Shown here in pieces: positions 7,343-20,654 of a stretch of 41,372 bases of DNA (its first letter is position 1; each line of letters begins with the position of its first letter). The stretch spans positions 1-41,372 of IMG/VR virus record IMGVR_UViG_3300018428_002440, one strand, 5' to 3'. A program made the position numbers and the translations under genes. The DNA comes from a virus. A model generated the notes under the pieces. It worked only from the letters and a program-made list of their open reading frames with translations. It was not told the DNA's origin and ran no database searches.

Positions 7343-7351
7343 GTATTTATG
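7343..7351 (-). promoter_or_regulatory. Late-type promoter motif
   Basis: Minus strand CATAAATAC overlaps the stop of the bilin reductase gene, 19 nt before the ATG at 7323. It fits the TATAAATA-like late class and would separate the virion-type gene from the early hsp20-bilin operon. Confidence 0.55.
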
Positions 7352-8039
7352 CGAGTTTAGGAAACAACATGTCTGTGCAGAACCTATCTACATCTTCTTC
7401 TGGTAAGCCTAGGCTTTTCATTACGTTTGCAGTGTGCGGATTTTGTTGCTGATTATGGCAATAATAGTCCTGCGCAGGCCCTACAATTTCTGGATTGCCT
7501 TCACCCTTAGTAGCACCGACTTCTGCAAAATAAGCACGTAAATTATCTGTAGCAATGCGTATAATCTCTGTTGCTTCTTCGTCTGTTTTTACATTACCTG
7601 CAGCAAGCATTTTGCCTGTGAAAATGTTTCTAGCCCACTCTGGTAGTTCACGTTGCTTTTCAGGTACAAAGTGTTCTACACTTTCAAAATAACCTTGTAT
7701 CATAGGATGATCTGGATCAGCACTTGGTGAAAAGTCATGGAATGCACCGGTCATTTTATTCTTGCCTGCTATAACATCAAAGCCATATATAGGTGCAGGA
7801 TTATCTAATGTTGGAAAGATACATACATGCATCATCCAAAGCCCTTTTGAATCGCGGGCATCTACAACATCGATGTGAGCACGGCGTACATTATTATTAG
7901 CCCAAACACGGTTAATCCAACCACCGTCTGGACGATTGAAATAGTCCAACCCATCTTCTTGTATTTCTGTCGCTTGTTCATCAAATATATCTATAATTTC
8001 GTCTTTACACTCAATTAGTTTGTTCCAGATAATGCTCAA
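7347..8039 (-). CDS. pcyX: Ferredoxin-dependent bilin reductase (PcyA/PcyX/PebS family)
   Basis: 230 aa, usual size for the family. Reduces biliverdin IXalpha, made by the heme oxygenase encoded just upstream, to a phycobilin using ferredoxin. Seen: VRRAHIDVVDAR, then LWMMHVCIFP and PIYGFDVIAG, whose Asp (about residue 88) aligns with the catalytic Asp105 of PcyA/PebS; then AFHDFSP and the C-terminal block QQQNPHTANVMKSLG...FCTDMLFP. Overlaps the heme oxygenase by 29 nt. Phage reductases called PcyX, known from marine metagenomes, make phycoerythrobilin and were proposed to come from phages of heterotrophic alphaproteobacteria; the gene symbol follows that context, but PebS or PcyA activity cannot be excluded from sequence. 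The pigment's purpose in a non-phototrophic host is unknown. Confidence 0.85.
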   Translation of the reverse strand: MSIIWNKLIECKDEIIDIFDEQATEIQEDGLDYFNRPDGGWINRVWANNNVRRAHIDVVDARDSKGLWMMHVCIFPTLDNPAPIYGFDVIAGKNKMTGAFHDFSPSADPDHPMIQGYFESVEHFVPEKQRELPEWARNIFTGKMLAAGNVKTDEEATEIIRIATDNLRAYFAEVGATKGEGNPEIVGPAQDYYCHNQQQNPHTANVMKSLGLPEEDVDRFCTDMLFPKLA

Positions 8040-8577
8040 TATCTATCTCCATTAGTTCTTGAAATAATTTTGTACTTTGTTCAAAACAATACTTTGCTTC
8101 ATCTGCCATACTGTCGTTTATCTTTGCACGAATAGATTCTTTTAATTCTGCTTTGTCTGATTCAAACTGATACATACGTCCTTCACCTGGAATTTTTTTA
8201 GCAATCATTTGTCCGCCGCTTAAATCTCCCATATGTAAAACATATACATGTGCCATTAAAGCAGTAGGGTCTTGCATAATATCTTTCATATGCATTATAT
8301 AATCTCTAGTGCTTTGAACTACTATAGGACTACCGTTTTGATCTTCCCATAGTTCTAAAAAATCATTTTCTATTTTTTGTTTTCTTCTTAGTCCTGGTAG
8401 ATCATCAAACAGTCCTTGAGCTCCGGCCATTGCTTCAAGTAGATCATATTTTTTGTGTTGATTCCAAAGATAAGTTGCGTAAAATTTTGGATTTATTTTA
8501 CCACTCATTAAAACTTTTACAAAATCTTGCCGTTCAGCGTTTTTGTGATGTTCCCATGTAAGTTCTTTTAAACTCAT
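8011..8577 (-). CDS. ho1: Heme oxygenase (biliverdin-forming)
   Basis: 188 aa, slightly shorter than cyanobacterial HO1 (about 240). Opens heme to biliverdin, CO and Fe(II). Seen: LTWEHHKNAE near the N-terminus, with His11 as the likely proximal heme ligand (HxxAE pattern), and the family signature LHMGDLSGGQMI (about residues 114-125), the distal helix with flexible glycines. It overlaps clpS by 4 nt (ATGA-type) and the bilin reductase by 29 nt, so the three are translationally linked: ClpS, HO, bilin reductase. Heme oxygenase plus bilin reductase is a known auxiliary pair of marine phages; released iron could also feed the di-iron and Fe-S enzymes encoded nearby. Confidence 0.92.
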   Translation of the reverse strand: MSLKELTWEHHKNAERQDFVKVLMSGKINPKFYATYLWNQHKKYDLLEAMAGAQGLFDDLPGLRRKQKIENDFLELWEDQNGSPIVVQSTRDYIMHMKDIMQDPTALMAHVYVLHMGDLSGGQMIAKKIPGEGRMYQFESDKAELKESIRAKINDSMADEAKYCFEQSTKLFQELMEIDIEHYLEQTN

Positions 8578-8900
8578 GCTTGTTCAACCTTAATACTTAG
8601 AGGAAATCCATGTTCCCTACTTGCAGTGTTAGCCTCTACAGCCTTTTGTTCTGCGATTTCAAAAGAATATGTTCCAACAACAGCTGCGCCTTTAGTATGC
8701 ACAATCAGTGTTAAATTTTTAGCAGTCTCTTCTGAATGATGAAAAATATTAGTCAATACCTCAATGACCCATTCCATAGGAGTCACGTTGTCATTTAAGA
8801 AAATTACGTTGTACTTTTTAGGTTCCTGTGTTTTTCTTTCTATCTTTTCATCAATAGATATTTCTTCTACTGTGTCTACATTCATGCTACTACTTATCAT
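8574..8900 (-). CDS. clpS: ClpS N-degron adaptor
   Basis: 108 aa, the usual ClpS length. A poorly structured N-terminal arm (residues 1-27) precedes the core KYNVIFLNDNVTPMEWVIEV, then HHSEETAKNLTLIVHTKGAA and FEIAEQKAVEANTASREHGF; the ND-x2-TPMEWV pocket motif and the HTKG region are conserved. ClpS loads substrates with destabilising N-terminal residues onto ClpA and, in E. coli, also inhibits ClpAP attack on ssrA-tagged proteins. That matters because this phage encodes a tmRNA. It is first in the clpS-HO-reductase cluster, with an AGGAGG site upstream, and follows hsp20, whose sigma70-like promoter probably drives all four genes. A phage-borne proteolysis adaptor suggests redirection of host ClpAP. 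Confidence 0.92.
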   Translation of the reverse strand: MISSSMNVDTVEEISIDEKIERKTQEPKKYNVIFLNDNVTPMEWVIEVLTNIFHHSEETAKNLTLIVHTKGAAVVGTYSFEIAEQKAVEANTASREHGFPLSIKVEQA

Positions 8901-20089: not shown

Positions 20090-20149
20090 AAATGGCCAAA
20101 GGTTATCTTCAGCCAAGTATACTTATCATTATGATAATTTTTTTTATCG

Positions 20150-20361
20150 AAAGTGGCCCGTTCTGTTGCCCGGTGGAGCCATACCGCGAAGTTGCAGGTT
20201 ATTAAGCTGCAAGTAGTTCACGGTCCATAGACATGTCTAAAGATGTGAACGCTTCAGGTGCAAAGTTTTCGTTTGCGTTTGTAGTTTTTCTTGCGATAAC
20301 CGTGCTTGCGCCGGACAACTCCACTCATCTATTAACTGCCAGTCGATCCTATTTCAGGCCC
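20150..20361 (-). ncRNA. ssrA: tmRNA coding piece
   Basis: Starts at GGGCCTG (20361), carries a D-like region, a pseudoknot-like segment (GTCCGGCGCAAGCACGG), the tag frame and a structured 3' part (about 20198-20150). The 3' end is an estimate. Confidence 0.8.
20202..20276 (-). other. tmRNA tag reading frame (24 residues, ends LLAA)
   Basis: Resume codon GCA at 20276-20274. The encoded tag begins ANENFAPEA and ends MDRELLAA, then tandem TAA stops. The start and end resemble alphaproteobacterial tags (ANDNFA...AA), but about ten residues (FTSLDMSMDREL region) are inserted, making it roughly twice the usual length. The terminal LAA favours ClpXP recognition. Confidence 0.85.
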
Positions 20362-20373
20362 ATCAAAAACACA

Positions 20374-20535
20374 CTAAGAACTGCTACTTGCAGTTGGATA
20401 GTTTGGTATTAATGTTATCCAATCTGCATCTGGAACTTCTATGACGATACCTAACTGTGGTGTCATCAACCCAGTATTAAAATCTTTTGCGGGTTCTGTA
20501 TTTAACATTCCCATAAGAGCAAAAATTAATTCCAT
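20374..20535 (-). CDS. Small ORF inside the tmRNA intervening spacer (53 aa)
   Basis: ATG at 20535 with GAGGA 7 nt upstream, TAG at 20374; it fills almost the whole 196-nt spacer between the two tmRNA pieces (20362-20557). Product MELIFALMGMLNTEPAKDFN followed by TGLMTPQLGIVIEVPDADWI and a Ser-rich end. Not recognised; one hydrophobic N-terminal stretch. It would be released when the precursor is cut. Reality as a protein is unproven: the frame is short, but the ribosome site and good fit to the spacer are suggestive. Confidence 0.5.
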   Translation of the reverse strand: MELIFALMGMLNTEPAKDFNTGLMTPQLGIVIEVPDADWITLIPNYPTASSSS

Positions 20536-20557
20536 TTTATTCCTCGTAATGTGTTTT

Positions 20558-20620
20558 TGGTGGACCTGCGGGGTACCGCCCCCCGGTCCTGCTCAGCGTT
20601 TGAATTGCTTCAACGTTGCA
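20558..20620 (-). ncRNA. ssrA: tmRNA acceptor piece (encoded CCA end)
   Basis: Runs from about 20620 (predicted transcript start) to the encoded ACCA at 20561-20558. T-arm-like stem CGGGG / CCCCG with loop GGCGGTA, followed by acceptor strand CAGGTCC. The loop lacks the usual TTC of a T-loop, which is notable. The 5' end is inferred from promoter position. Confidence 0.8.
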
Positions 20621-20625
20621 GTATA

Positions 20626-20654
20626 TTTATAGCACTATTTTGATGTTTTGTCAA
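20626..20654 (-). promoter_or_regulatory. Sigma70-like promoter for tmRNA
   Basis: Minus strand TTGACA (20649-20654), 17-bp spacer, TATAAA (20626-20631). It lies inside the 3' end of the preceding gene and predicts a start near 20620, just before the acceptor piece. The -10 also reads TATAAATA. Confidence 0.72.

Follow-up and report, generated by a model that had tools for sequence, protein, structure and literature searches.

Small protein-coding genes recur in the intervening spacer of phage permuted tmRNA genes, and comparison of spacer sequences shows that the reading frames nested there are, as a class, real genes. Our main reading, to which we give a probability of about 0.68, is that this spacer serves as a cargo slot for small phage genes, that the window (the whole 41,372-nt stretch of viral DNA analysed, a 41-kb virus record) carries one such gene, and that the cargo would be translated from the tmRNA precursor, with processing following. 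If this is true, then a non-coding RNA gene that has been under study for decades also acts, in marine phages, as a gene for proteins, and the 'waste' fragment left by its processing would be a reserved slot for small genes.

The tmRNA gene of the window and its 53-codon frame

The window carries nrdA and nrdB, genes for glutaredoxin and HSP20, and a glutamine riboswitch, and its NrdB resembles those of Pelagibacter and cyanobacterial myophages. The tmRNA gene called by ARAGORN is matched on the same strand by two Rfam models, RF01849 with 107 bits (gathering cut-off 50) and RF04321 with 96.3 bits (cut-off 47). Its acceptor piece, which ends ...GGTCCACCA with the CCA terminating at 20558, lies upstream of the coding piece, which begins GGGCCTGAAATAGGATCGAC at 20361, and the spacer lies between them, which is the order that defines a permuted two-piece tmRNA (Table 1). 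The window gene is thus a member of the permuted alpha group (RF01849, RF04321), with the same gene order, T arm, acceptor stem and tag frame. The tag is ANENFAPEAFTSLDMSMDRELLAA followed by two stops (ARAGORN), and the tag frame ends in AA and a stop, as is the case for the alpha type. Usual tmRNA tags are about half as long as the 24 residues encoded here (20203-20280, minus strand, with tandem stops); other phage tags in our set reach 29-31 residues.

Table 1. Features of the tmRNA locus, in window coordinates
Feature	Position	Strand	Basis or remark
Permuted (two-piece) alpha-type tmRNA gene	20111..20651	-	ARAGORN; Rfam RF01849, RF04321
Candidate T4-type late promoter motif TATAAATA, just upstream of tmRNA	20624..20631	-	Position-specific in viral permuted tmRNAs
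Acceptor (3') piece of mature tmRNA, T arm and CCA	20558..20619	-	5' limit from RF04321 match
Intervening spacer, 196 nt, between CCA and G1 of coding piece	20362..20557	-	Sequence
Closing helix, 5' strand AAAACACATT	20548..20557	-	Register, covariation, fold of window spacer; pairs with 20366-20375
Insert relative to L002, with Shine-Dalgarno site and nearly all of the frame	20383..20547	-	Alignment to L002
GAGGA Shine-Dalgarno-like site, 5 nt before ATG	20541..20545	-	Sequence
Open reading frame MELIFALMGMLNTEPAKDFNTGLMTPQLGIVIEVPDADWITLIPNYPTASSSS, 53 codons, ATG to TAG	20374..20535	-	ORF list; codon usage; shuffles
Closing helix, 3' strand AGTGTGTTTT	20366..20375	-	AG of stop codon TAG within it
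Coding (5') piece of mature tmRNA with tag reading frame	20152..20361	-	3' limit from RF01849 match

A preliminary description of this DNA had placed in the 196-nt spacer a 53-codon frame that has its own GAGGA site and stops 12 nt short of the coding piece. Our coordinates agree on every point: on the minus strand, the spacer occupies 20557-20362 and the frame 20535-20374, GAGGA is found at 20545-20541, 5 nt ahead of the ATG, and the gap from the stop to the coding piece is 20373-20362.

This frame might be neutral filler, that is, captured or random open DNA in a spacer in which selection acts only on the closing helix (described below) that holds the precursor together. The probability of obtaining such a frame by shuffling is small, although not negligible: when the spacer interior was shuffled 5000 times with its dinucleotides preserved, 2.9% of the sequences had a frame of 53 codons or more from any start, 1.5% had one from ATG, and 0.56% one with a Shine-Dalgarno match. 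Against filler, the frame has a start, a Shine-Dalgarno site and a stop, and it has the codon usage of a gene. Scored against the window phage's own genes, it yields 0.476 bits per codon, the 51st percentile among 52-codon windows of real genes (median 0.46), while off-frame windows reach at most 0.364. Thus, the frame looks like a gene in its codon usage, which is typical of the phage's genes, but this alone is not proof.

The comparison with other loci gives filler some of its support. The frame is a singleton among the clustered spacer frames; tblastn against phage records, a single scan of viral contigs, 49 related records and 4.5 Mb of fetched loci gave no homologue, and PHROGs and Pfam gave no family match. 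It is also missing from the nearest tmRNAs. The nearest relatives (L002, L003, L005 and L006) have NrdB proteins that are 90-94% identical to that of the window and the same 24-residue tag, and their spacers are 34-39 nt. The alignment to L002, which has a 39-nt spacer, matches up to 20382 and resumes at 20548; by this alignment the window frame is an insertion of about 165 nt that is not conserved locally. The TAG that serves as its stop is already present in the empty L002 spacer. A further relative with the same coding-piece motif, L584, has a different cargo at the site, a frame of family B (see below) that ends SVSL and a stop. The preliminary description had proposed conservation of spacer length and frame as the check on its claim, to be given up if these were not conserved; neither is kept in the closest relatives, in which the insert is absent. 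Its interpretation holds in part, in that spacers recurrently host real small genes, but the window frame itself is not conserved in relatives.

More generally, spacer length and content vary widely and many long spacers are free of frames, as filler would predict; clear purifying selection on the frames of other spacers argues the opposite. It was found in nine other families, and the window frame is without a homologue for such a comparison. Weighing these points, we regard filler as unlikely, with a minor but appreciable chance of being correct, and consider the window frame a likely, if unproven, true gene on the grounds of its anatomy, codon usage and membership of the pattern rather than of conservation.

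Reading frames in phage tmRNA spacers

Permuted tmRNAs were gathered by pattern scans in the tRNA-like domain and by an NrdB-based collection, and the parsing script demanded a paired acceptor stem. The count of frames drew on two pattern scans only, which provided 80 non-redundant spacers of at least 70 nt gathered regardless of content; a scan biased to spacers starting AAGGA was excluded from this count, yet supplied extra family members for the dN/dS analysis. We called a frame if it was led by a Shine-Dalgarno site, had at least 20 codons and covered at least 60% of the spacer. Such frames are present in 24 of the 80 spacers, compared to a mean of 4.6 and a maximum of 11 in 200 shuffles, and to 3 on the reverse complement. 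With ATG starts only, the count is 21 spacers versus 1.7 in shuffles. The other 56 of the 80 long spacers do not hold such a frame.

Viral spacers differ from those of hosts in length. The host permuted tmRNA spacers that we collected (alphaproteobacterial, 109 loci) are short, with a median of 38 nt, whereas the viral median is 81 nt and the window spacer has 196 nt with a gene-like frame. Among distinct alphaproteobacterial spacers, 10 of 113 reach 70 nt, and 2 of those 10 hold frames. We noted one cellular, Rhodobiaceae-type tmRNA (L334), near sspB-like and fumC-like genes, with a 184-nt spacer and a 49-codon membrane-type frame; both of its relatives (L667 and L668) keep the spacer length, and in one of them the frame is broken by a premature stop.

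The spacer frames cluster into ten families of at least two members and 33 singletons. In the nine families with informative pairs, dN/dS is 0.05-0.27 and the changes are mostly in third positions; although the pairs of one family are not independent of each other, all families point the same way. Shifted frames mostly give a pN/pS of about 1 or higher (range 0.26-2.15, the value of 0.26 coming from a family with four differences only). Not every frame need be alive: the frames in two spacers, L275 and L019, apparently lack a normal start, and thus captured, possibly dead, fragments do occur. In L275 the frame begins without ATG, GTG or TTG, the codon after its Shine-Dalgarno site being ATA, and by eye this spacer and that of L255 apparently encode related proteins (FKEKC...).

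Family A encodes a membrane-type peptide (...WSICADIxLIxGI...). Nearly all of its best 80 viral loci, 79, lie inside a tmRNA spacer (72 by the script and 7 by eye), and one lies outside. Five family A spacers (L227, L235, L242, L256 and L264) have a second, conserved-looking frame of 23 codons (such as ...DSDEEPSSKKNIGGNV) that owns a perfect Shine-Dalgarno site and overlaps the membrane peptide in another frame.

Family B, of 62 residues, is distributed differently: its best 80 loci comprise 27 that are nested, 15 upstream of a tmRNA and 38 that are free-standing, and in several cases the loci adjoin tRNA genes. In the cultured phage Melnitz, the family B homologue is annotated as CDS 85, and 4 nt separate its end from the tmRNA gene. 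All nested family B proteins end (M/V)SL and a stop, an ending specified by the helix 3' strand together with the conserved UGA; free-standing members have other ends. The VSL ending is also seen in the unrelated nested frames of L217, L412 and L468. On the family B tree, the nested state needs at least three changes when counted by starred branches and six on the best tree; a single clade of nested genes was not rejected by the AU test (p 0.078). Multiple capture of family B into spacers is suggested by these trees.

The closing helix and proposed expression from the precursor

Irrespective of the cargo, the two ends of the spacer, next to the CCA and next to the coding piece, pair with each other in a fixed register, position i with -(i+4). 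Viral spacers have a mean of 9.9 consecutive pairs in this register, compared to 1.1-3.3 when the strands are slid. Over 127 distinct helices the register holds and the pairing covaries: position 5 is paired in 97%, versus 44% with shuffled partners, with six pair types, and position 7 in 100% versus 62%. Of 204 viral spacers, 187 have TGAT as their final four bases. The helix has about 10 bp and continues the acceptor stem beyond an ACCA/UGAU internal loop; all cargoes are enclosed by it, with frame and ribosome-binding site located within the helix or at its tip. The window has a 10-bp helix with the frame between its strands; the Shine-Dalgarno site lies just inside the 5' strand and is not paired in it.

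In many spacers with cargo, the 5' strand of the helix doubles as the Shine-Dalgarno site (TAAGGACA with TGTCTTTA; AAAGGAGA with TCTCTTTT). Among unbiased spacers, 29 of 50 with a frame and 6 of 70 without one have a Shine-Dalgarno motif within their first nine bases; the association is in part circular, a Shine-Dalgarno site having been required for calling a frame. The stops of 43 frame clusters are distributed between the UGA of TGAT (12 clusters), positions farther inside the spacer (19) and the inside of the mature coding piece (12). A helix that carries both the Shine-Dalgarno site and the stop would, if this is true, link translation directly to RNA maturation.

Such a link can be drawn in more than one way. 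The preliminary description had RNase P and 3'-end cutting free the spacer as an mRNA, coupling peptide synthesis to tmRNA maturation. Removal of the spacer is indeed required for the mature two-piece tmRNA, and in the window the stop is within the spacer and the Shine-Dalgarno site is outside the helix strands, so this model may hold for window-like cargoes. However, in 29 of the 50 frame-bearing unbiased spacers a Shine-Dalgarno-like motif would sit in the helix that still closes the freed fragment, and in 12 of the 43 clusters the stop is beyond the RNase P site, leaving the freed fragment without one. The model is therefore not general, since some conserved frames stop in the mature coding piece, and we consider it improbable; translation from the precursor fits these arrangements better.

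A second proposal is that translation itself is the point, with the transit of the ribosome opening the helix and setting the rate of tmRNA processing, in the manner of a leader peptide. This would explain why the helix strands of many families incorporate the Shine-Dalgarno motif and the stop, and why 12 of 43 clusters use as stop the conserved UGA beside the processing site. The proteins are conserved, however (the dN/dS values above), and family B genes also stand free, from which we conclude that the products matter; a purely leader-like role seems to us quite improbable.

We return to the cargo slot, for which the following order of events would apply. The tmRNA precursor would be transcribed late, and ribosomes would load on the Shine-Dalgarno site of the spacer before synthesis of the helix 3' strand and the coding piece is complete, so that the small protein would be produced from nascent or unprocessed precursor. 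The helix would then close, and RNase P and 3'-end processing would excise the spacer to give the mature tmRNA. One transcript would thus be an mRNA first and a tmRNA precursor afterwards, and the cargo would gain a shared promoter at nearly zero genome cost.

The nearest candidate for a promoter driving the tmRNA and the nested frame jointly is the late motif TATAAATA. Of 251 viral permuted tmRNAs, 181 have this motif 60-100 nt upstream of their CCA end, compared to 1 of 111 host ones; it is equally common with cargo (76 of 107) and without (136 of 195), and never lies within the spacer. Its position suggests late expression of phage permuted tmRNAs, unlike the early expression that the Melnitz authors postulated for that tmRNA (PMC9004378). 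We also noted a sigma-70-like promoter overlapping the late motif in the window, with TTGACA at 20649-20654 (minus strand), 17 nt ahead of TATAAA (20626-20631); our promoter scan missed this pair, probably through its rule of a T at position 6.

More tentatively, phage tmRNA precursors may be dual-use transcripts in which translation and maturation compete, and a premature cut may give a nonstop message that is rescued by the tmRNA, forming a feedback loop. We put this forward as a speculative and rather unlikely extension. Such feedback would be limited to families with a stop beyond the RNase P site, because there a prematurely cut spacer would be a nonstop message, the substrate of tmRNA.

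Relation to known systems

A close parallel to the window is the Methylophilales phage Melnitz (MZ577097; PMC9004378), likewise a marine phage with a permuted tmRNA and a framed spacer. Its 142-nt spacer holds a 54-codon frame (MFKWLSK...) with GGAG upstream that is not annotated as a CDS. This frame is unrelated to that of the window and continues past the RNase P site, reaching into the coding piece, and the family B gene of Melnitz is just upstream of the tmRNA rather than nested. The Melnitz paper covers the two-piece tmRNA together with the riboswitch, and the passages found mention no spacer frame (PMC9004378). We found no description of protein-coding cargo or of a reading frame in tmRNA spacers among the open-access papers searched.

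Other insertions in tmRNA genes have been described. In a tmRNA database paper of 2025, a tRNA-Ala gene is reported from one permuted spacer and a repeat from another (PMC11915505); these are likewise extra cargo in a permuted spacer, but an RNA gene or a repeat, not a protein gene. The homing endonuclease genes in tmRNA group I introns (PMC11915505) are, like the phage cargo, protein genes in a removed part of a tmRNA. They combine a self-splicing T-loop intron with an endonuclease, whereas the phage genes are tiny, do not encode endonucleases and lie in a processing spacer. Since such endonuclease-bearing introns are known in tmRNA T loops (PMC11915505), we considered whether the window's tmRNA gene had acquired a group I intron or homing element. 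The insert is in the spacer of the permuted gene and the T loop is uninterrupted, no intron family of Rfam matches the window, and the frame has no endonuclease match in PHROGs or Pfam. The intron form was rejected for the window tmRNA given its uninterrupted T loop and the absence of an intron family, and we accord this explanation a negligible probability.

ORF annotation tends to skip the interiors of RNA genes, as the unannotated Melnitz spacer frame illustrates. ARAGORN reports no tmRNA at many loci, L007, L017, L146 and L423 among them, despite a plain paired acceptor stem, T arm and coding piece; because such loci are missed, spacer cargo may conceal tmRNA genes from annotation.

Several neighbouring features of the window were noted in passing. 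A glutamine riboswitch (RF01739, 18560-18608, minus strand) lies downstream of the tmRNA and of a 340-aa porin-like gene; in Melnitz, a glutamine riboswitch is reported within the tmRNA gene itself, in its 3' domain (PMC9004378). At 7347-8577 (minus strand), a gene for heme oxygenase adjoins one for ferredoxin-dependent bilin reductase. ClpS and tmRNA both feed Clp proteases. The phage encodes a ClpS protease adaptor (8574-8900, minus strand; Pfam PF02617, 98.9 bits) on the same fragment as its tmRNA.
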